Source of the DNA: Ruminococcus sp.
GTDB taxonomy: Bacteria; Bacillota; Clostridia; Oscillospirales; Ruminococcaceae
Direction: 5' to 3'
DNA: 49,705 nt
NCBI GenBank assembly: GCA_024403995.1
Contig: JAKSQT010000009.1
Location: 1-49,705, forward strand
In this document: positions 489 to 11,116 of the stretch, one piece after another
Layout of the letters: every line of letters begins with the position of its first letter
Numbering within the stretch: position 1 is the stretch's first letter
Notes under the pieces: model-generated
Told to the model about the DNA's origin: nothing
Database searches by the model: none
What the model saw: the letters and a program-made list of their open reading frames with translations, nothing else
Position numbers and translations under genes: made by a program

Positions 489-2435
489 CTATTTTACAAG
501 TTCCTGAAATTCCTCCTCAGTAATTATCGGAACATTCAGTGACTTGGCTGTTTTGTTTTTCGTAGAATTTGATGTTGAGTCATTGTTTATCAGGTAATCT
601 GTTTTTGACGATACCGAGCCTGATACCTTTCCGCCCAATGACTCGATGTATGCTTTCAGTTCATTTCTGTTTTTCCAGATATTGACCGAACCCGTTATTA
701 CAAATGTCTTGCCCGCAATTGCAGAATCTGCGCTTATCGGCTCAGCTTCGGAAATATCAAGCTCTTTCAGCAATTCGTGATACTCCGCAAGATTTTCTTC
801 ATCTGCAAAGAAATTCACATAATCATTAGCAAGCACTTCACCTATGCCGTCAATAGCGGTAAGCTCGTCAACTGTAAGCTTTTCAATTTGTTCTGCTGTC
901 GGATATGAGGCGCAGATAAGCCTTGAAGCTGCCCTTCCGATATTCGGTATACCTACCGCATACAGTACATGGCTGAGTTCAGTATGCCTTGAAGCCTCAA
1001 CTGCTTCCTGCATTTTAGCATACGAACGCTCGCCGAAACCTTCCATCGTCACGATCTTTGCCTTATGATCGTCAAAATGATAGAAATCACTGAATTTTCT
1101 GACAAATCCCTCAGAAACGAATGTCTCAATGGTAGCAGTCGAAAGTCCGACTATATTTAATGCATCACGCTGTACAAAGTGCTCGAATTTACCGATATGC
1201 TTTGCAGGGCACTGCTTGTTCATGCAGAAAAGCGTCTCAACGTCATCATCAGAAGTCTTTATTTCAGTTTTACCGCCGCATACAGGACAAATTTCAGGTA
1301 TCGGAGCATTTCCCGATCCTGTCTTGTTTTCAAGCACCTGCGGGATTATCATGTTTGCCTTGAATATCGAAAGTGTATCGCCTATGCCGAGTTTAAGCTG
1401 TTTCACGATGCTGACATTGTGTACGGATGCCCTTGAAACCGTAGTTCCCTCAAGCTCGACAGAATCAAATATCGCAACAGGATTGAGCAGTCCGGTGCGG
1501 CTTGCAGACCATTCTATCTCACGCAGAACAGTATCAGCAGTTTCGTCCTTCCACTTGAATGCCATGCCGTTTCTTGGAGCGTGAGAAGTTTCGCCGAGAC
1601 TTAAACCGTATGCCACATCATCAAGCATCAGCACAAGTCCGTCTGACGGAAATTCATTATCAGCAATAGATGCTTCAAATTTCTTAATTTCTTCTGCAAG
1701 CGTTTCTGATTTTGTCTTAACGCCGTAAACTGTCTGAAATCCGAGAGAAGCAAGCCATTTTATTCTTTCTGCAAAGGAATTCTCCTCATATCCGTCTGCT
1801 GAAACAAGATTGAATGCAAAAAAATTGATATTTCTTTCAGCCGTGACCTTAGAATCAAGATTACGCACTGTTCCAACACAGAGATTTCGTGGATTTTTAT
1901 ACTTTGAGCCGTCCTCTATCATATCATTGACACGCTCAAAATCTTTGTATTTCATCAGCGATTCGCCTCTTACGACCATATGACCGCCAAATGGTATCTT
2001 TTTCGGTATTCCGTTGATATGACGTGCATTCTGTGTGATATCCTCGCCTGTTTCACCGTTTCCACGGGTAACAGCCTGTGTCAGTTCGCCATTGTCAAAT
2101 GTCAGGACAAGAGTAAGTCCGTCAAGTTTCCAGCTAAGAAATCCCTCGTGCTCACCAAGCCATTCTGTCAGCTCGCTGACACTTTTTGTCTTGTCAAGTG
2201 AAAGCATTTTTGAAGTATGCTTCACCTTTTTAAGCGATGATGCGACCTCATATCCTACGACCTGAGTACGGCTTCCGTTGAGAATAACGCCTGTTTCTTT
2301 TTCAAGGCGGTCAAGCTCATCATACAAAGCATCATATTCATGGTCTGACATTATTTCCTTGCCCGTATTATAGTATGCGTCTGATGCCTTTGAAAGAAGC
2401 TCATTCAGCTCTTTCATTCTCTCGATTTTATCCAT
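489..2435 (-). CDS. ligA: NAD-dependent DNA ligase LigA
   Basis: A 648-aa NAD+-dependent DNA ligase that seals nicks in replication and repair. Domains run in the usual order. Domain Ia for NMN binding comes first (about residues 1-65, with DAYYNTGKEIMSDHEYDALY). The adenylation domain carries the nucleotidyl lysine in WKLDGLTL (about residue 104) and the downstream RGNGETGEDIT. The OB fold is next, then a Cys4 zinc finger (CPVCGG ... CMNKQCPAK, about 384-408), helix-hairpin-helix repeats (IPNIGRAASRLI, IDGIGEVLAND) and a C-terminal BRCT domain (about 570-648, GKTFVITGSV). Length is near the family norm of about 670. The ATG at 2435 follows GGAGGAATT. The GNAT gene follows at 9 bases. Confidence 0.97.
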   Translation of the reverse strand: MDKIERMKELNELLSKASDAYYNTGKEIMSDHEYDALYDELDRLEKETGVILNGSRTQVVGYEVASSLKKVKHTSKMLSLDKTKSVSELTEWLGEHEGFLSWKLDGLTLVLTFDNGELTQAVTRGNGETGEDITQNARHINGIPKKIPFGGHMVVRGESLMKYKDFERVNDMIEDGSKYKNPRNLCVGTVRNLDSKVTAERNINFFAFNLVSADGYEENSFAERIKWLASLGFQTVYGVKTKSETLAEEIKKFEASIADNEFPSDGLVLMLDDVAYGLSLGETSHAPRNGMAFKWKDETADTVLREIEWSASRTGLLNPVAIFDSVELEGTTVSRASVHNVSIVKQLKLGIGDTLSIFKANMIIPQVLENKTGSGNAPIPEICPVCGGKTEIKTSDDDVETLFCMNKQCPAKHIGKFEHFVQRDALNIVGLSTATIETFVSEGFVRKFSDFYHFDDHKAKIVTMEGFGERSYAKMQEAVEASRHTELSHVLYAVGIPNIGRAASRLICASYPTAEQIEKLTVDELTAIDGIGEVLANDYVNFFADEENLAEYHELLKELDISEAEPISADSAIAGKTFVITGSVNIWKNRNELKAYIESLGGKVSGSVSSKTDYLINNDSTSNSTKNKTAKSLNVPIITEEEFQELVK

Positions 2436-2454
2436 AATAATTCCTCCGTTATAA

Positions 2455-2485
2455 ATAAAGCAGATGCTTTTTACATCTGCTTTAT
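2455..2485 (-). terminator. Rho-independent terminator after the D,D-carboxypeptidase homologue
   Basis: A 12-bp perfect stem (ATAAAGCAGATG / CATCTGCTTTAT) with a 7-base loop lies between the stop of the peptidase-like gene and the start of ligA. The tail after the stem is only moderately T-rich (TTATAA), so termination may be partial. Confidence 0.6.
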
Positions 2486-2498
2486 GATAATCTATGCT

Positions 2499-3920
2499 TT
2501 ATTTGTCCTTTGATACAGGCTTTTTCTTTCGTGGCTGAGCATTTTTGTCAACCTTTGGTACTGCGTATATCGGCTTCATCGGCTTTGCCTTGCTCTTGAA
2601 CACTGCGTATGAATAAACACACAGCACAATATAGAGCAGACTGAGCAGACCTGCAAAAATGAATGCCTTGCCGAACCAGCTTGACTTTCTGAACATCTTT
2701 GCAACATACCAGTTATACTTTGACGATGAACGCTCAACGCTGCTTACGGCTATCAGTTCAACAGTTCCAAGCTCCTCACCTGAATATTCAAGCGTTACCG
2801 TACCAAGCGGCTCATCCTTGGCAACAGGAGCCTGAAGCTTATTATTGTACCATACTATTTTATCCTTGCTGATAGTTGCGGTATCAACATCATTGTACCA
2901 GAGAAGTGAAATTTCATCCTTTGGACGTGCAAGAACATAGTCATTTCCCTCTGCAAGAGAAACAGGCAGTTCTCCGACTTCTGCCGTATTTGCAAGAACA
3001 GTCTGATATGAGAAGTACTTGAATGCCCAGTTGAATACTTTTATGCAGTCCTCAATATGATAGTACTCATCGTATCCATCCTCATTTTGAAGCGGTGCCT
3101 TGAGAAGAACAGCAAGATACTTGTTTCCGTCACGGCTTGCCATTGAAATAATGCTTCTGCCGCCCATTTCAAGATTGGATGTCTTGATGCCCTTTGCTCC
3201 GCTGTAATAAAAAGAAGTATCCTTTTCATCCATCATGATATTGGAATTTGTCCATACCCATTCTTCATGGCTCTTGTGATTCTGAGGATTCGGAACTGAC
3301 GGATTATATTTATAAGTCGTTGAAATAGTCTCAAAAAGCGGTACTGACAAAGCATACTGGGTAAGCGTTGCCATATCCCTTGCCGTGGTATACTGATTTG
3401 GATCATAAGCGCCTGATGCATTTGTAAAATGTGTATCTTCAAGACCGATCTCCTTAGCCTTGTCATTCATCATCTTTACAAAATTATCGGTATTTCCGTC
3501 ACCAACATGATATGCGATAGTTTCGGAAGCCTCCGTGGATGATGTAAGCATCATCGCATAGAGAAGGTCGGTGACTGTAAGAACATCTTCATTACATATA
3601 TCTATCCATATCAAGTCATCCTTATACTCAGACTCATAAAGATGCTCAAAAACAGACTCATGAACTGTGACTTCCTCATTGATATTCTGGCAGTTTTCAA
3701 GGCACACAACTGCTGTCATGATATTTACAAGCGTTCCCGGCATCTGCTTTGTATCTGCATTTTTCTCGTGTATGACCGTTCCGACATCGAGATTTACTAC
3801 GATAGCCGATTCGCTCTGGATAGTTTCTTTAAGCGGAAAACTGATTGCGTCCGCACTCTGTATATTTATAAGCGGCAAAGCTATAAAAGCCGCTGCAACT
3901 GCTGAAATAAACTTCTTCAT
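2499..3920 (-). CDS. Membrane-anchored D-alanyl-D-alanine carboxypeptidase (S11) homologue with altered active site
   Basis: A 473-aa protein with a signal peptide (residues 1-25, ...QSADA), an S11 peptidase-like domain (about 30-285), a beta domain, and a C-terminal membrane segment (about 418-440, AFIFAGLLSLLYIVLCVYSY) followed by a basic tail. This is the layout of DacA-type low-molecular-weight penicillin-binding proteins. All three catalytic motifs differ from the family consensus. The SxxK motif reads T63-L-V-N66 (PGTLVNIMTA, where PASxxKIMTA is usual), SxN reads S127-S-T129, and KTG reads K246-T-S248. The surrounding residues still align, so this looks like a pseudoenzyme, perhaps a peptidoglycan-binding or regulatory subunit. 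Start: ATG at 3920 with AGGAGAGC upstream. It probably has its own transcript ending at the hairpin 2455-2485. Confidence 0.85.
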   Translation of the reverse strand: MKKFISAVAAAFIALPLINIQSADAISFPLKETIQSESAIVVNLDVGTVIHEKNADTKQMPGTLVNIMTAVVCLENCQNINEEVTVHESVFEHLYESEYKDDLIWIDICNEDVLTVTDLLYAMMLTSSTEASETIAYHVGDGNTDNFVKMMNDKAKEIGLEDTHFTNASGAYDPNQYTTARDMATLTQYALSVPLFETISTTYKYNPSVPNPQNHKSHEEWVWTNSNIMMDEKDTSFYYSGAKGIKTSNLEMGGRSIISMASRDGNKYLAVLLKAPLQNEDGYDEYYHIEDCIKVFNWAFKYFSYQTVLANTAEVGELPVSLAEGNDYVLARPKDEISLLWYNDVDTATISKDKIVWYNNKLQAPVAKDEPLGTVTLEYSGEELGTVELIAVSSVERSSSKYNWYVAKMFRKSSWFGKAFIFAGLLSLLYIVLCVYSYAVFKSKAKPMKPIYAVPKVDKNAQPRKKKPVSKDK

Positions 3921-4000
3921 AAGCTCTCCTCTTTATAAAACCCGCACCCCAATCAACAGGTTGTATTGCTCTCCAAACTAAACCTTGCAAACAATACTTG

Positions 4001-4225
4001 TTAAGGCAACACCGCTCAAAGCACGTCTGATGACTTTGCACGTCATAAACTTGTATATTTTCCGTCATATCACACAGAAATTCCTTGCCATACGTGGTCT
4101 CTCCCTGTGGGAGAGGTGTCAGCGAGGCTGACCAACAGACCGGTATGCCTGCGAAATTTCTATGCAATCTGACGAAAAATCTGACTGCGTTTCTGCCGCA
4201 CAATCTTTGTGCGGTGTTGCCTTAA
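4001..4225 (+). repeat. Family B terminal-inverted-repeat element, copy 1, with nested insert
   Basis: Termini are TTAAGGCAACACCGCTCAAA and, inverted, TTTGTGCGGTGTTGCCTTAA. The body matches the copy at 43923-44102 in the same orientation, for example GACGAAAAATCTGACTGCG and AGAAATTCCTTG. It differs by about 46 extra bases in the middle (4095-4142). There is no ORF of its own, so it resembles a MITE moved by a transposase elsewhere. The TTAA/TA ends are compatible with a TA- or TTAA-targeting transposase. It lies upstream of the peptidase-like gene and may sit in its leader. Confidence 0.85.
4095..4142 (+). repeat. Nested three-helix mini-element inside family B copy 1
   Basis: A segment absent from the other family B copy. 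It can form a closing stem GGTCT (4096-4100) / AGACC (4137-4141), a hairpin CTCTCCC (4099-4105) / GGGAGAG (4109-4115), and a hairpin GTCAGC (4118-4123) / GCTGAC (4127-4132). This compact fold suggests a separate small repeat that inserted into the element. The alternative is a deletion from copy 2. Confidence 0.6.
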
Positions 4226-4413
4226 AAATCCGGTTTCTGACTTTTCCATTGGACAATGTTCATTTGGCAGAACAATAATGATATCATATTTTTACACTAA
4301 TACATATATTATAGCAGATTATTTCTGATTTTAAAAGGGTTTTTTAAAAAAAAAATTGAATTTTTTATATATTTGTAAAAAATATGTATTTATGTATTTT
4401 TTTGCTGTCAGTC

Positions 4414-4442
4414 TTTACTTTTTTGTCTGAATATGATAAAAT
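4414..4442 (+). promoter_or_regulatory. Sigma-A-type promoter for the phosphoesterase gene
   Basis: TTTACT, a 17-base spacer, then TAAAAT. Transcription would begin near 4449. That rules out the in-frame ATGs at 4384 and 4447 as useful starts and supports the ATG at 4504. The rest of the gap from 4226 to 4413 is A/T-rich with no supported gene. Confidence 0.6.
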
Positions 4443-4503
4443 ATTAATGTATGCAAAATCAGCCATTCTGCGTACAAGGTTTCAGATATCGGAGGTATAT
4501 AAA

Positions 4504-5166
4504 ATGATTTACATAACAGGAGACACCCACGGCGATATTACCCGTTTCAGAAGTTCAGAACTGAAAAAAATACGTCATGGTGACACTCTTATTATATGCG
4601 GGGATTTCGGATTTATCTGGAACAGATCAAAACAGGAACGTGCTGACCTGAAAAAGCTCATGTCAAAAGATTATACAATAGCATTCATTGACGGCTGCCA
4701 TGAAAATTTCGACCTTCTTGAAGATTATCCCGTTGCTGACTGGAACGGCGGAAAAGTCCACAAGATATCCCACAACATCGTTCATCTCATGCGTGGGCAG
4801 ATCTACACTATTGAAGGCAAAAAGATCTTCACCTTCGGCGGCGGTCACAGTCAGGACTTTGAATTCAGGCATGACGGTGACTGGTGGGAGCGTGAACAGC
4901 CTACTCATGCCGAAATTATTGACGGTATACGCAGTCTGAAAGAACATGATTTCGAGGTGGATTACATCGTTACACATGAACCGCCTGCATCTCTCAAAGA
5001 CTGCCTCGGCGTTGACGTTTTTCAGCGCATTGAGGTTCATGCATTCTTTGAAGATGTCATCAAAACCGTAAAATACGAAAAGTGGTTCTTCGGCAAATGC
5101 CATATTGATAAGCATATTCCCATGAAATTCTATGCCGTATTCAATACCGTAACTGCCCTTAAATGA
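4504..5166 (+). CDS. Metallophosphoesterase (calcineurin-like)
   Basis: A 220-aa cytosolic phosphoesterase with a metal-binding calcineurin-like fold. Visible motifs are GDTHGD (residues 6-11), CGDFGFIW (about 31-38), DGCHEN (the GNHE-type motif, about 61-66), FGGGHSQD, and late histidines VTHEPP and GKCHIDKHI. No substrate can be assigned; related small proteins act on nucleotides, phosphoproteins or diesters. The start at 4504 was chosen because GGAGG sits 7 bases upstream, the conserved strand MIYITGDTHGD begins there, and the promoter lies at 4414-4442. The gene stands alone, with a family A element directly downstream. Confidence 0.85.
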   Translation: MIYITGDTHGDITRFRSSELKKIRHGDTLIICGDFGFIWNRSKQERADLKKLMSKDYTIAFIDGCHENFDLLEDYPVADWNGGKVHKISHNIVHLMRGQIYTIEGKKIFTFGGGHSQDFEFRHDGDWWEREQPTHAEIIDGIRSLKEHDFEVDYIVTHEPPASLKDCLGVDVFQRIEVHAFFEDVIKTVKYEKWFFGKCHIDKHIPMKFYAVFNTVTALK

Positions 5167-5201
5167 CATATTTTCACAATTTTCCTCATATATTTCTATA
5201 A

Positions 5202-5356
5202 GGGCACCTCTAAAGACCCATTCTGAGGAAAAGCAGCTATGCACAATCTGCTGCGTCAAGCCATCTCATAGTGCGAAAGCACGCCTGCGATGGCTTTTCT
5301 TGCATCTACTGTACCTATCTGCTTTTCCTTACTCAAAACGGTTTTTAGAGGTGCCC
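5202..5356 (-). repeat. Family A terminal-inverted-repeat element, copy 1 (inverted), with 5-bp target duplication
   Basis: Ends are GGGCACCTCT and AGAGGTGCCC. The perfect duplication TATAA flanks it at 5197-5201 and 5357-5361. The core is the reverse complement of the copies at 35406 and 49488 (AGCTATGCACAATCTGCTGC here, against GCAGCAGATGCTGTGCATAG there). The two halves are largely complementary, so the whole unit could fold into one long hairpin. No transposase is encoded. Confidence 0.9.
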
Positions 5357-6292: not shown

Positions 6293-7111
6293 TTATAAGC
6301 TATATTTATTATCAATATTGCATTCTTTTTGTTTATGTATCGCCTTAACGGGACATATCTCCACACATTCGCCGCAGCCTTCACATTTGTCATAGTCAAT
6401 TGACGCATGGAAGTTCTCAACTTTTATCGCTCCTGACGGACATTTTTTCTCGCACATTTTACAGCCGATACAGCCGTTTTTACAGCTTTCCTTTGTCTCC
6501 CTGCCGTTTGCCGCAGATGAACACAGCACGTCAATACGCTTGGCAACAGGTTTTATTGATATCAGACCATTCGGACAGACTGCCGCACATTTTCCGCAGG
6601 CTTCACACTGTGCCGGTGAGACCTCTGCAACTCCGTTTACTACTTTTATTGCACCTTTTTCGCATACTGCCATGCAGTCGCCATATCCGAGACAGCCGAA
6701 ACGGCACATACCGTTACCGCCGTAAAAGCGCTTGGCTGCCGTACATGACTGAACACCGTCAAACTCGAAACGTTTCTGGGTTGCTTCACAATTGCCGTTA
6801 CAGTGAACTATCGCTGTCATCGGTACCACTTCAGCCGCTGAAGTACCGAGTATCGCCGCTATTTTTCCTGCCGCATCTGCACCTCCGGGACGGCAGAGAT
6901 TTGTCTCCGCTCCCTTTTCAATTATAGCCGCCGCATAATCCGAACAGCCTGCAAATCCGCATGAACCACAATTTGCCTGCGGAAGCGATTCGGCTATCCT
7001 GTCGATACGTTCATCAATTTCAACGTGAAAAACCTTTGCCGCAACCGTAAGAAGTACACCGGCAAGCACACCGCATCCCCCAAGAATAAGCACAGGTATC
7101 AGATAATTCAT
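6293..7111 (-). CDS. rnfB: Rnf complex subunit B (ferredoxin-like iron-sulfur protein)
   Basis: A 272-aa RnfB, the polyferredoxin subunit that accepts electrons from reduced ferredoxin in the membrane Rnf complex. It has an N-terminal membrane helix (about residues 4-26), the Fe-S domain NCGSCGFAGCSDYA with a later cysteine in NLCRPGG, and then repeated [4Fe-4S] motifs: CRFGCLGYGDCMAVC, CEACGKCAAVCP, CIGCKMCEKKCP and CEGCGECVEICP. It is the last gene of the rnfCDGEAB operon, 15 bases after rnfA, with GAGGGGG eight bases before ATG. The order is the usual clostridial one. No terminator hairpin directly follows; the family A element at 6074-6231 is the first strong structure downstream. Confidence 0.97.
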   Translation of the reverse strand: MNYLIPVLILGGCGVLAGVLLTVAAKVFHVEIDERIDRIAESLPQANCGSCGFAGCSDYAAAIIEKGAETNLCRPGGADAAGKIAAILGTSAAEVVPMTAIVHCNGNCEATQKRFEFDGVQSCTAAKRFYGGNGMCRFGCLGYGDCMAVCEKGAIKVVNGVAEVSPAQCEACGKCAAVCPNGLISIKPVAKRIDVLCSSAANGRETKESCKNGCIGCKMCEKKCPSGAIKVENFHASIDYDKCEGCGECVEICPVKAIHKQKECNIDNKYSL

Positions 7112-7126
7112 AAGCTATGCCCCCTC

Positions 7127-7705
7127 TCATCTGAAAAGTCCCGCAAAACCCATGAAACTGACCGAAACTATCGATGCAGCTATAAGCGTTGCAGGCATTC
7201 CCTTGAATGTTTCAGGTATATCGGCATATTCAAGCTTTTTGCGGACTCCCGAAAAAATGATAAGCGACATCATAAATCCAAGTCCGCCTCCGAGCGCATT
7301 TACTATTGACTGTACAAAAGTATAATTATTGTCGATATTAAGCACTGTTACGCCAAGTACCGCACAGTTTGTCGTTATCAGCGGCAGATAAACGCCAAGC
7401 GACTTATATAATGACGGTATGCACTTTTTCAGGAAATTTTCCACAAGCTGAACGAAAAGCGCAATTATCAGGATAAACACAACCGTGTCAAAATATTCCA
7501 GTCCGTTCGGAACAAGTATTCCGTGATGTATCGGATATGTAACAAGAGTTGCACATACCATTACAAATGTTACTGCAATTCCCATTCCTGCGGCACTTCC
7601 AAGCTTTTTAGACACACCGAGGAACGGACAGATGCCCATAAACTTAGAGAGTACAAAATTGTCCGTCAGCATTGCAGAGAGCAGTATCACTATCATTGTT
7701 TTCAC
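7127..7705 (-). CDS. rnfA: Rnf complex subunit A (integral membrane)
   Basis: A 192-aa RnfA, one of the two homologous multi-helix subunits (A and E) of the ion-pumping Rnf complex. It shows about six membrane helices and the conserved LTDNFVLSKFMGICPFLGVSKK near the N-terminus. The second-half motif LITTNCAVLGVTVLN is typical of the RnfA/NqrE family. I place the start at the GTG at 7705, which overlaps the rnfE stop as GTGA with AGGTGG upstream; the result matches the usual 190-195 aa. The ATG at 7696 is a possible alternative. A longer upstream frame would run into rnfE. Translation is probably coupled to rnfE. Confidence 0.95.
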   Translation of the reverse strand: MKTMIVILLSAMLTDNFVLSKFMGICPFLGVSKKLGSAAGMGIAVTFVMVCATLVTYPIHHGILVPNGLEYFDTVVFILIIALFVQLVENFLKKCIPSLYKSLGVYLPLITTNCAVLGVTVLNIDNNYTFVQSIVNALGGGLGFMMSLIIFSGVRKKLEYADIPETFKGMPATLIAASIVSVSFMGFAGLFR

Positions 7706-8376
7706 TGGCAGCCACCTGCCTTTCCGCATACTCCTTCATTCGGACAGCCTGAACAGCCAACCTCCTGGGGCGGTTTCTGTTTTTTCAGCTTGTTGACAAC
7801 TGCAATAAGCATTCCAAGAGTGAAAAAACCTCCTGCCGGCATAATGAACAGCAGCATCGGACTTTCGCTTATCACGGGTATTTTCAGTCCGAGCCAGCTT
7901 CCTGAACCAAGTATCTCTCTGACTGAACCCATGAGAAAAAGTGCTCCGGTGAAACCGAGTCCCATTCCTATTGCATCACACGCCGACGCAGCAACGCCAT
8001 TCTTGCTTGCAAACATTTCTGCCCTGCCGAAAATTATACAGTTTACGGTAATGAGCGTGAGATATATTCCGAGACTGTCATACAGCGACGGCACAAAACC
8101 TTCAAGCAGAAAACCAATAAGCGTTACAAAACTTGCTATTATTACGATAAATGCAGGTATCCTGACCTTGTCGGGAATAACCTTTCTTAGCAGTGAGATT
8201 ACAATATTTGAACCAAGAAGAACAAATGTCGTAGCAAGTCCCATGCCGATGCCGTTCATTGCCTGAGTTGTTACGGCAAGTGTCGGGCACATTCCGAGCA
8301 GCATCACAAAAGTCGGATTTTCTTTTATCATTCCTCTTGTCAGGTCTGAAACAAGAGATTTTTTTTCATCAGCCAT
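7702..8376 (-). CDS. rnfE: Rnf complex subunit E (integral membrane) with Cys-rich C-terminus
   Basis: A 224-aa RnfE, a membrane subunit homologous to RnfA and NqrD. Typical segments are NPTFVMLLGMCPTLAVTTQA near the N-terminus, LITVNCIIFGRAEMFASKN mid-protein, and a run of about six helices. The C-terminal cytoplasmic tail ends with four cysteines, C-x2-C-x5-C-x5-C (CSGCPNEGVCGKAGGC), which could hold a metal or Fe-S centre; I cannot tell from one sequence how common this is in the genus. The start ATG at 8376 overlaps the end of rnfG and has GGAGG 9 bases upstream. Confidence 0.96.
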   Translation of the reverse strand: MADEKKSLVSDLTRGMIKENPTFVMLLGMCPTLAVTTQAMNGIGMGLATTFVLLGSNIVISLLRKVIPDKVRIPAFIVIIASFVTLIGFLLEGFVPSLYDSLGIYLTLITVNCIIFGRAEMFASKNGVAASACDAIGMGLGFTGALFLMGSVREILGSGSWLGLKIPVISESPMLLFIMPAGGFFTLGMLIAVVNKLKKQKPPQEVGCSGCPNEGVCGKAGGCQ

Positions 8377-8896
8377 TCAGAAGCGCCTCCTTATTATTAA
8401 TGTATACCTCAAGGGCAGTCTCAACAGCGTGCTTCATTCCGTTTGATGAAAATGTTGCGCCGCTTATCGCATCAAAATCACTTGAAATATCAGAATTTCC
8501 CATAAACTGAGCACGGAAATTTATATCATCACGTACTTTTGAACCGAGTCCGGGAGTTTCACCAAGTGAAATAAACTCAATTCCGCTGACCCTGCCTGTT
8601 TTTTCAATACCAATAAGTACATTTATTCCGTCCTTTGAATAGCCGTCAGTACATACCTGAACAGCCGTTCTGCCATCGGAAGTTACTGCAACTGCCTTTA
8701 TTTCACTGTTTCCGAAATCTTTATCAATAAGCTTTATTTCAGTATCTCCAAAAAGCGCCTCAACACTTTTCGAGAATTTCAGCTCTTTCTGTTCGGCAAT
8801 GCTGTCCTTTGTCTGTTCATTCGCAAAAACAAGCAGAACAGACGCTATTACGCAAATTATTGTCAGCACAATGGTAGGCATTATCTTATCCTTCAT
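8369..8896 (-). CDS. rnfG: Rnf complex subunit G (covalent FMN protein)
   Basis: A 175-aa RnfG with one N-terminal membrane helix (about residues 6-26) and an extracytoplasmic FMN-binding domain. The flavinylation motif D-x-x-S-G-A-T is present as DAISGAT (142-148), so T148 should carry FMN attached by an ApbE-type transferase, which is not encoded here. GLGSKV (117-122) is also conserved in the family. I chose the ATG at 8896 because AAAGGAGG lies 9 bases upstream and the helix begins there. The start overlaps the last codons of rnfD. Confidence 0.95.
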   Translation of the reverse strand: MKDKIMPTIVLTIICVIASVLLVFANEQTKDSIAEQKELKFSKSVEALFGDTEIKLIDKDFGNSEIKAVAVTSDGRTAVQVCTDGYSKDGINVLIGIEKTGRVSGIEFISLGETPGLGSKVRDDINFRAQFMGNSDISSDFDAISGATFSSNGMKHAVETALEVYINNKEALLNG

Positions 8897-9839
8897 TTTT
8901 TGCCGCCTCCTTTGCACCAAAAACCTTACTGCGGCTGATTTCCTCAATATACGGCGTAAGAACGTTCATGAGCAGTATCGAAAACGACACACCCTCGGGA
9001 TATGCGCCAAAATGCCTTATCACAAATGTTAGGATGCCGCATCCAAGCCCGAATATCACCTTTCCCTTTGCGGTAATAGGTGTTGTTGCATAATCAGTAG
9101 CCATAAAAAATGCTCCGAGAAAAACTCCGCCTGCAAGAATCTGGTATACCGGATCATCACCGCCAATCCACGAAAGAACAAACAGACTTCCGATGAAAGA
9201 GAACGGCGCTGCAAGAGATATTATTTTCGTAACAGCAAGGTAAAGTCCGCCAATAAGAAGTGCAAGTGCACACGTCTCACCAAGACATCCTCCCGTTTTT
9301 CCAAGGAACATATCAACATATGACGGAACATCTCCTCCTGATTTTCCAAGAACAAGAGGCGTTGCGGATGACACGGCATCATAATCAAATTCAAGCGGCT
9401 TTATCCAGTGAGTCATTGATGCAGGGAAACTTATCATAAGCACTATTCTTGCCGTTATTGCAGGATTGGCGAAATTCTGCCCGAGTCCGCCGAAAAGCTG
9501 CTTGACTATTACTATCGCTATAAATGAACCGATAACAGCCATCCAGTAAGGCAGCGTGACAGGCATATTCATTGCAAGAAGCATCCCCGTAACAACTGCC
9601 GAAAGATCGCCGATCGTATTCTTTCTGTCCATGAGCAGACGGCACACATATTCAAATAATATACAGCTTCCGATGCATACCGATGTCAGGCTTATCACCC
9701 TTAATCCGAAAAACCACACACCCATGCACCACGCCGGCAGAAGCGCAATAATAACTTTTAGCATAATGCGTGTTGTTGATAAAAAATTCTCGTCGTGCGG
9801 TGACGGCGAAACTATAAGTCTTTTCAATTTGTTCACCAT
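8886..9839 (-). CDS. rnfD: Rnf complex subunit D (integral membrane, covalent FMN)
   Basis: A 317-aa RnfD, homologous to NqrB, with about nine or ten membrane helices and a covalent flavin site. The motif DAVSSAT (residues 154-160) fits the D-x-x-[ST]-x-A-T consensus, placing FMN on T160. The N-terminus LIVSPSPHDENFLSTTRIM is typical. The start is the ATG at 9839, which shares a base with the rnfC stop (TGATG) and has AGAGGA five bases upstream; the GTG at 9842 is an alternative one codon earlier. Coupled translation with rnfC is likely. Confidence 0.95.
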   Translation of the reverse strand: MVNKLKRLIVSPSPHDENFLSTTRIMLKVIIALLPAWCMGVWFFGLRVISLTSVCIGSCILFEYVCRLLMDRKNTIGDLSAVVTGMLLAMNMPVTLPYWMAVIGSFIAIVIVKQLFGGLGQNFANPAITARIVLMISFPASMTHWIKPLEFDYDAVSSATPLVLGKSGGDVPSYVDMFLGKTGGCLGETCALALLIGGLYLAVTKIISLAAPFSFIGSLFVLSWIGGDDPVYQILAGGVFLGAFFMATDYATTPITAKGKVIFGLGCGILTFVIRHFGAYPEGVSFSILLMNVLTPYIEEISRSKVFGAKEAAKNEG

Positions 9840-11116
9840 CACTTTCCTCTGATCAATGCTTTTGCAAGCTGATTTGTCTCCGCAAGCTTACGGTTTGCAG
9901 GACAGACAAATGTACAGCTTCCGCAGTTCATGCACAGCGATACATTCAGCTTTTTCAGTTCTTCAATATTGCGGATCCTATAAGCTCTGTCAATGTCCGC
10001 AGGTATGAGTCCGAGTGAGCATACTCTTACACATCTGCCGCACCGTATGCAGTTTGACGGCTTGCGGATATCGTATGACTTTACTGCAAGAAGAGCATTT
10101 GACGTTTTTACGACAGGCATATCTATATCGGGAATGCTCATTCCCATCATCGGACCGCCCCCGATCAGCTTTATGAGCGCATCCATATCAGTTTTGCAGA
10201 ATTCCAGCACCTCACGAAAAGGTGTTCCTATAATAGCTGAGACATTTTTCGGCTCGCCTACTGCATTTCCGTCAACTGTGATTCGACGTTTCACAAGAGG
10301 CATACCATTCTGCATATACCTGTAAAGGAACGCAACTGTTGATACATTGATAACAATTACTCCCTTATCTGACGGAAATTCACCCTCACGAACAACTCTG
10401 CCCGTGGAATTGTAGATTATGATCTTTTCCGCACCCTGCGGATAAACTGACGGCAGAGTGACAATATCTATTGTATCGTCATTTTCAGCCATTTTAATGA
10501 AATTGTTGATTGCTTCCGGCTTATTCGCCTCAATTGCAAGTTTGGCATTTTTTATCCCAAGCTGTGTTTTTATCATGTTTATGCCGCCGATTATATCATC
10601 CGGGAACTCCATCATTTCCCTGTAATCAGCCGTTATGTAGGGTTCACACTCTGCGGCATTGACTATCAGTGTATCGATCGGGCTTTTTGTTGAAAGCTTC
10701 ATATGTGTCGGGAAACCTGCGCCGCCAAGCCCGCACGCACCGCTTTCACGGACTGCATTAAGAAAGCTTTCCCTGTCTGATACCACAGGCTTTTTTACTT
10801 CTTCTGATACTGTCTGCAAACCGTCAGTCTCTATAACGACAGCTTTGCATACTGCGCCGTTTGCGGCAATATAGTCTTTCAGCAGCTTGACTTTTCCTGA
10901 TACTCCCGAATGCACAGGAGCGCTGAACATTTCAGGACAATCCCCTATTTTCTGCCCTACCCTGACTTCATCCCCGACCTTTACAAGGGGCTGACAGAAC
11001 TTTCCCATCGTCATTGACATAGGAATTGTCACCTCGGCAGGAAGCGGCAGTTCTGTAGTTACGCTGTTTTCCGTATTTTTACGGTGTTTCAGCCTTATAC
11101 CTTTCAATTTTTTCAT
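9839..11116 (-). CDS. rnfC: Rnf complex subunit C (NADH-binding iron-sulfur protein)
   Basis: A 425-aa RnfC, the peripheral subunit that passes electrons to NAD+. Order of parts: an N-terminal barrel-sandwich domain (APVHSGVSGKVKLL, about residues 68-81), the NADH/FMN-binding Rossmann-like region with GLGGAGFPTHMKLS (about 136-149) and NAAECEPYITADYREM, a SLBB-like segment, and two [4Fe-4S] motifs, CIRCGRCVRVC (about 360-370) and CMNCGSCTFVCP (about 399-410). It is the first gene of the operon. The start at 11116 has AAGGAG seven bases upstream and a good promoter at 11171-11199. Loss of the N-terminal Cys-rich extension seen in some homologues is normal for this subfamily. Confidence 0.97.
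   Translation of the reverse strand: MKKLKGIRLKHRKNTENSVTTELPLPAEVTIPMSMTMGKFCQPLVKVGDEVRVGQKIGDCPEMFSAPVHSGVSGKVKLLKDYIAANGAVCKAVVIETDGLQTVSEEVKKPVVSDRESFLNAVRESGACGLGGAGFPTHMKLSTKSPIDTLIVNAAECEPYITADYREMMEFPDDIIGGINMIKTQLGIKNAKLAIEANKPEAINNFIKMAENDDTIDIVTLPSVYPQGAEKIIIYNSTGRVVREGEFPSDKGVIVINVSTVAFLYRYMQNGMPLVKRRITVDGNAVGEPKNVSAIIGTPFREVLEFCKTDMDALIKLIGGGPMMGMSIPDIDMPVVKTSNALLAVKSYDIRKPSNCIRCGRCVRVCSLGLIPADIDRAYRIRNIEELKKLNVSLCMNCGSCTFVCPANRKLAETNQLAKALIRGK

Follow-up and report, generated by a model that had tools for sequence, protein, structure and literature searches.

The gene at positions 2499..3920 (minus strand) of the window, i.e., the whole analysed stretch of 49,705 nucleotides from a Ruminococcus sp. 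genome, codes for an S11-type D,D-carboxypeptidase of 473 aa which, as judged from its sequence, has very probably lost its chemistry and has been retained by selection as a pseudoenzyme. The term applies because the catalytic residues are lost yet the gene is under purifying selection. The initial annotation had proposed such a pseudoenzyme, and the proposal is sustained by altered motifs that are conserved in relatives and by the mode of selection, with inactivity as a prediction. The disabled carboxypeptidase probably binds or signals rather than cuts, because the same inactivated form is retained, under strong selection, in the majority of relatives. The complete explanation that we favor, a pseudoenzyme that binds stem peptides and relays through its tail, appears reasonably likely, and its stem-peptide-binding and tail-relay part, taken by itself, is tentative.

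Protein layout and catalytic motifs

The frame of 473 codons runs on the minus strand without interruption from an ATG to the stop codon, which is included in 2499..3920; by eye, GAGGAG is seen directly 5' of the start codon. The protein begins with a signal-peptide-like stretch ending in ADA (residues 1–25; 3846..3920), followed by a Peptidase_S11 domain (residues 32–275; 3096..3827; Pfam 7.3e-39), whose score of 134 bits against a cut-off of 27.6 places the protein in the S11 family, and, C-terminal to it, by a PBP5_C domain (residues 304–397; 2730..3011; Pfam 8.6e-6). Both domains were detected in 26/26 members of alignment A1. The only other Pfam match of the window protein is Beta-lactamase2; neither an M23 nor a zinc protease domain was reported. 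A putative transmembrane (TM) helix (residues 415–438; 2607..2678), assigned like the N terminus by eye from the sequence and the alignment, precedes a predicted cytoplasmic tail with the motif KPMKPIYAVPK (residues 446–456; 2553..2585), conserved in the alignment; all these features are encoded on the minus strand. Of the S11 layout noticed initially, the two domains are found again by Pfam, and the signal peptide and the C-terminal anchor are putative, read by eye.

The 2.58-Mb draft genome that carries the window is 86% complete. A scan of window positions 2300–4500 returned one terminator-like site, against 1.2 expected, and 14 promoter-like ones, against 7.1 expected (sd 2.3). Plasmid carriage was considered and rejected, as every one of the 15 matched records had less than 60% identity.

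The catalytic motifs were placed by aligning the protein, with phmmer, to 3mfd, 4k91, and 3a3j, three S11 proteins of solved structure, the motifs being free of internal gaps; the solved relatives of the window protein (these three, 1nzo, and others) are ordinary carboxypeptidases. The alignments agree with the first reading of TLVN for SxxK, SST for SxN, and KTS for KTG, and hence none of the three motifs of an active S11 enzyme is intact. The segment P61-G62-T63-L64-V65-N66 (3723..3740, minus strand) aligns with PASxxK, with both Ser and Lys absent; S127-S128-T129 (3534..3542, minus strand) aligns with SGN/SAN and keeps S127; and K246-T247-S248 (3177..3185, minus strand) aligns with KTG and keeps K and T. 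According to one publication (PMC9953012), SxxK and SxN hold the S11 catalytic triad, and the KTG lysine possibly aids binding or reactivity. An intact SxxK, which the initial annotation had named as contrary evidence, was looked for elsewhere in the protein and not found: six S..K strings are present, of which S398-K401 alone is conserved (86/87 orthologs), and it is located past PBP5_C, just ahead of the putative membrane anchor and outside the S11 domain.

Among the 100 genomes of the genus that were searched, the window's own included, an ortholog is present in 87; the orthologs from the other genomes are 51–76% identical to the window protein, and other S11 matches have at most 34% identity among the matches listed. 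The closest named relatives are Ruminococcus flavefaciens records (FD-1, 76%). Of the 90 loci read, three were repeats and were dropped, which left 87 distinct sequences. In these, position 63 is occupied by P in 72 sequences, S in 6, Q in 4, T in 3, and A in 2; position 66 by N in 85 and D in 2, and never by K; position 129 by V in 42, I in 19, M in 17, Y in 4, F in 2, and T, C, and L in one each; and position 248 by A in 59, G in 21, and S in 7. The SxxK serine persists in 6/87 orthologs and an intact KTG in 21/87, and S127, K246, and T247 are invariant (87/87). The expectation that the T/N/S pattern is conserved in relatives therefore has to be divided: the loss of Lys and of the SxN Asn extends to all 87 orthologs and N66 to 85 of them, whereas T63 (3/87) and S248 (7/87) are uncommon. 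The near-fixed mark is the change of Lys66 to Asn, and the T63 and S248 of the window protein are variants of a looser theme. The loss of Lys is far beyond chance, because it is inherited genus-wide and is present in rows of nine further genera.

We compared 64 Lys-bearing rows, which represent homologs from many genera and not just the nearest ones, with the 48 rows of the Lys-less clade described below. Of the residues found in at least 85% of the Lys-bearing rows, K66 and S104 are gone from the clade (0%, S104 falling from 98%), and T65 (6%), S63 (19%), A62 (23%), H169 (27%, from 88%), and G248 (40%) have become rarer. S127, K246, and T247 are kept in 48/48 clade rows and R255 in 47/48. Residues common in the clade and rare in the Lys-bearing rows include, among others, S128 (47/48), D102, G241, H288, and W341; the last of these, situated in PBP5_C, is present in 87/87 genus orthologs and in every clade row having a residue at that position.

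In the S11 family, the KT pair, the SxN serine, and an arginine contact the ligand carboxylate, whereas SxxK and the Asn run the chemistry. As the carboxylate-contacting residues are kept and the chemistry residues are lost, binding may survive without cutting, and the kept Ser/Lys/Thr/Arg set may still hold a ligand; the conservation of K246, T247, and S127 may, on the other hand, be structural. A different use of the same residues would be a rewired catalysis, in which S127 and K246, whose positions are close together in the S11 fold, replace S63/K66 as a Ser-Lys pair and perform a slow or different peptidase or transfer chemistry. Such a cryptic activity would fit with the retention of S127, K246, and T247 in every clade row despite the loss of the classical pair and with the strong constraint on the active-site segments, but we know of no precedent for it in S11, S104, N129, and H169 have likewise disappeared or become rare, and two other Lys-less rows (L331, with KAS, and L259) have the KTG site altered further, so we regard it as quite improbable. 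Weak residual chemistry is possible in the six orthologs, because they keep the SxxK serine.

Selection, ancestry, and proposed order of residue loss

Ratios of dN to dS were estimated by the Nei-Gojobori method for 28 Ruminococcus pairs with 0.1 < dS < 1, regional values being pooled over 18 independent pairs. The median is 0.059 (range 0.015–0.103), well below 1, as anticipated in the initial annotation. Pooled by region, the ratio is 0.035 in the C-terminal domain, 0.044 in the active-site segments (three), 0.057 in the core, 0.059 in the tail, 0.061 in the juxtamembrane stretch together with the TM helix, and 0.18 in the signal stretch. Purifying selection is strong and extends through the C-terminal domain and the tail. 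The N66 codon in the orthologs is AAT in 69 cases and AAC in 16; since both Asn codons are used, the constancy of this residue is selected and not just recent.

These observations bear on the possibility that the gene is decaying, as a recently dead carboxypeptidase, or that it reflects an assembly or sequencing error. Key catalytic residues are indeed gone, and four genomes of the genus with at least 90% completeness (G009, G027, G040, and G077) are devoid of the gene. However, there are 87 orthologs with open frames and dN/dS of about 0.06, N66 is held with both Asn codons, and the pseudoenzyme forms one clade across 10 genera. Decay and error were rejected on the grounds of dN/dS and conservation, the probability left to them being negligible, and the original statement that the frame is open and the gene is not decayed stands.

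In 28 Ruminococcus rows, the core and the C-terminal domain have mean pairwise identities of 0.596 and 0.602. The corresponding values are 0.467 and 0.404 for the other pseudoenzyme genera (20 rows), 0.572 and 0.423 for a selection of 16 SAC-type rows, and 0.474 and 0.342 for the full set of 64 Lys-bearing rows. Constraint is shifted toward the C-terminus in the pseudoenzyme. The Ruminococcus orthologs end in a putative TM helix and then a tail with KPxKPxYAVPK, in which Y452 is present in 78/79 rows aligned at that site (8 further rows are unaligned there). The identity of the TM helix (0.547) and of the tail (0.539) in Ruminococcus does not exceed that of the core (0.596). No second protein with the tail motif was found, the degenerate coding pattern for P..YAVPK occurring once in the 2.58-Mb genome, in the pseudoenzyme gene itself. 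As a clade-wide signature, the tail was rejected: it is confined to Ruminococcus, and elsewhere in the clade the tails are different or short. The tail is thus a lead and not proof, because the TM helix and the tail are no more conserved than the core and because the tails differ in other genera.

A search of the GTDB family yielded matches at 1e-30 in 244/247 genomes (126 genera). Besides the window, 89 family rows were read (90 family loci minus L177, a repeat of the window), 64 with the SxxK lysine and 25 without it; as these rows were chosen from the best-scoring matches, their counts are not frequencies. Almost every family genome has one strong match among the matches listed (G189 has two), and hence there is no evident sign of a recent duplication. 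All three trees of the pseudoenzyme family were built with the motif columns masked. One of them unites 48 Lys-less rows of 10 GTDB genera in a single clade (SH-aLRT 95): 26 aligned rows of Ruminococcus, another two of this genus, and 20 of nine other genera. The second, a careful tree, covers 88 of the 120 rows (paralogs, near-copies, and some others were omitted for speed) and needs four changes of Lys state, three of them forced by well-supported branches; the third, of 98 rows with outgroups of another family and the Lys-less L331, needs five, of which four are so forced. Besides the main clade, the best tree needs four more losses of Lys, and well-supported branches force three.

Two of the Lys-less groups outside the main clade deserve mention. 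L240, L313, and L314, from three genomes of one genus, have PGALVD, SAC, and KTG, a separate loss of Lys kept in all three. L331, an S11 homolog from GTDB family f23 with PAYLAQ, SSC, and KAS, has an unsure tree position, and its loss of Lys looks independent.

The motif states PAQLAQ/SSC/KTG are found near the base of the main clade, and Ruminococcus has mostly PGPLVN/SSV/KTA. The SxN Asn is replaced by Cys in 40/64 Lys-bearing family rows with an intact SxxK (e.g., L200 and L202-L207), and all seven outgroup rows of family f24 have SGN. Asn-bearing rows never lack the lysine (0/21 family rows and 0/14 order rows), and the residue at the Asn site of Lys-less rows is C, A, I, M, or V (25 family and 4 order rows, the sets sharing some genomes). 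We read from the tree, and not from a reconstruction, that in the window's lineage Asn would have been lost first and Lys next, to be followed by Ser and by the Gly of KTG. A fixed sequence of losses valid for all S11 proteins was rejected, and the Asn-first order is restricted to the window's lineage, because L006, L004, and L058 (the last with GEIVK and NAN) have lost the serine but kept Asn and Lys.

The window's genome has six S11 genes. All three motifs are intact in L001 and L005; L002 has SGA for SxN; L006/L300 (contig C91, 4477-5157) has PAGLVK, i.e., Gly for the serine, with the lysine, SGN, and KTG intact; and L004 (Pfam S11 5.9e-38) has Tyr for the SxxK serine (GYMSK), NAN for SxN, and, by eye, KAT for KTG. 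In L299, at 1825-5216 (contig C35, about 13.3–16.7 kb), L002, a VanY-type gene (PF02557 8.6e-14), and L004 stand in a row. In three of the six S11 proteins of this genome, the serine or the lysine of SxxK is missing. Annotation pipelines that rely on domain hits would probably label the pseudoenzyme a D-Ala-D-Ala carboxypeptidase, and counts of carboxypeptidases or penicillin targets obtained in this way can run too high.

Gene neighborhood and a candidate partner

The divergent neighbor of the pseudoenzyme gene, at 4384..5166 on the plus strand, has no Pfam match, and we take it to be phosphoesterase-like from its GDTHGD motif. It is present in the flanks of 50/90 Ruminococcus loci (the 87 distinct ones plus L177, L178, and L179, two genomes being counted twice), 13/23 other Lys-less loci, and 17/64 Lys-bearing loci, many of the flanks being short. 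In Ruminococcus, it is on the opposite strand in 47/48 cases, with a median offset of 832 bp upstream, and at the Lys-bearing loci it is divergent and upstream in every case. Sharing of this neighbor with Lys-bearing loci supports orthology and conversion in place, and suggests that the pseudoenzyme arose from a Lys-bearing gene at the same locus.

On the other side, 63 bp downstream and on the same strand, a gene of the NAD-dependent DNA ligase family is found (489-2435, minus strand), possibly a second ligase, whose KLDGLT departs from the usual motif. It was rejected as a functional partner, a related ligase flanking just 5/87 loci. The proteins encoded at 6293-9842 (minus strand) resemble, as we assume, an Rnf electron-transport cluster.

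A gene with Amidase_3 and SH3 domains (Pfam 8.3e-12 and 1e-15) is one candidate partner, albeit a weak one. It matters for the explanation in which the pseudoenzyme is a degenerate activator of another wall hydrolase, to which its dead S11 fold would dock and which it would switch on in the manner of EnvC, NlpD, ActS, or Csd2, with this amidase as the best candidate for the hydrolase. Analogy with dead M23 proteins would make such a role conceivable: ActS is described as activating amidases (PMC8360153), and Csd2, with its degenerate active site, as dimerising with Csd1 (PMC5053510). A downstream flank of 800 bp or more was available for 88 Ruminococcus loci (two of them repeating a genome). 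At 49 of these, the amidase gene is convergent and at most 300 bp away from the pseudoenzyme gene, and at three more it is on the same strand, its frame opening 4–38 bp downstream. The pseudoenzyme is missing from 13 genus genomes; 12 of these are also without an amidase match at 1e-25, and they include three of at least 90% completeness (G009, G040, and G077). Genomes without both genes are scattered over several places of an RpoB tree, which needs four state changes, two of them forced by well-supported branches. This tree contains 25 of 30 genomes (two gave no match and three gave fragments), with 8 sequences from genomes lacking both genes; under the label used, "lacks both genes", G027 is grouped with the rest.

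Other observations argue against this activator role. Of the 13 genomes, 9 are less than 90% complete, a range in which neighbors drop out together, and claims of absence are limited by genome completeness in general. The amidase occurs without the pseudoenzyme in G027, which is 100% complete, and the 158 bases left on the contig past the amidase contain no trace of the pseudoenzyme; conversely, no amidase was matched in three genomes that do have the pseudoenzyme, G017, G046, and G066. The genome of the window carries the two genes on separate contigs. Beyond the genus, 39/50 genomes have the amidase, namely 21/30 of those with Lys-bearing homologs (20 strong matches and a weak one, 1.5e-21) and 18/20 of those from the other pseudoenzyme genera, and there it is near the gene at 1/23 Lys-less and 0/64 Lys-bearing loci (flanks mostly 1–1.5 kb). 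By eye, the amidase has no signal peptide. The partnership is weakened in particular by the presence of the amidase alongside Lys-bearing homologs and by its occurrence alone in G027, and we consider the activator explanation unlikely.

Proposed function and comparison with known systems

According to the favored explanation, a Lys-bearing S11 gene would have been converted in place, losing its nucleophile-activating machinery, and the protein, presumably exported and membrane-anchored, would then have been retained for a non-catalytic job. The groove would bind the carboxylate end of peptidoglycan stem peptides via Ser, Lys-Thr, and Arg, with no cutting, and the protein would position a partner at the wall or report the state of the wall across the membrane. 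The output would pass through the C-terminal domain and the TM helix, plus, in Ruminococcus, the KPxKPxYAVPK tail. In the most specific version, the protein is a receptor whose dead groove reads uncut stem peptides and relays the signal via the C-terminal domain and the short conserved tail, and the conversion is repeatable and ordered; this version is conceivable but doubtful.

If the protein is a wall sensor or organiser, it would offer a handle on wall control in gut and rumen bacteria. The series of motif states (SAN, SAC, SSC with Gln, and SSV with Asn and Pro) would allow the transition from an enzyme to a binding protein to be tested stepwise. Regulation of live peptidoglycan hydrolases by dead ones is known for M23, and a case with the S11/penicillin-binding fold seems to be undescribed in the open-licence literature, in which titles and the beginnings of abstracts revealed no S11 pseudoenzyme.

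The degenerate M23/LytM factors (EnvC, NlpD, ActS, and Csd2 of H. pylori) are likewise members of a peptidoglycan-hydrolase family with a dead active site and a regulatory or scaffold role. Their fold and chemistry are unrelated, however, no M23 (LytM) fold was detected by Pfam in the window protein, which sets it apart from M23 amidase activators, and their partner is known, whereas that of the pseudoenzyme is only a candidate. The sensors BlaR1 and MecR1 have a fold of the penicillin-recognising type outside the membrane, joined to the cytosol, and require an acylatable SxxK serine. A similar extracellular fold and cytosolic link are predicted for the pseudoenzyme, but it is devoid of this serine (T63 in the window protein, Pro in 72/87 orthologs) and of a zinc protease domain detectable by Pfam.

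The Lys-bearing relatives from the same GTDB family (PASLTK/SAC/KTG) are related to the pseudoenzyme by the tree, and some share its divergent neighbor; their SxN Asn is already Cys, but, unlike the pseudoenzyme, they keep the SxxK Ser and Lys and the KTG Gly. Finally, with the S11 D,D-carboxypeptidases (DacA/PBP5, DacF, and DacB; 3mfd, 4k91, 3a3j, and 1nzo), the window protein shares homology, the order of Peptidase_S11 and PBP5_C, an export-signal-like start, a putative C-terminal anchor, and S127, K246, and T247. It differs from them in the absence of the SxxK Ser and Lys, the SxN Asn, and S104, and in the addition of a putative TM helix and a 35-residue tail, partly conserved in Ruminococcus.
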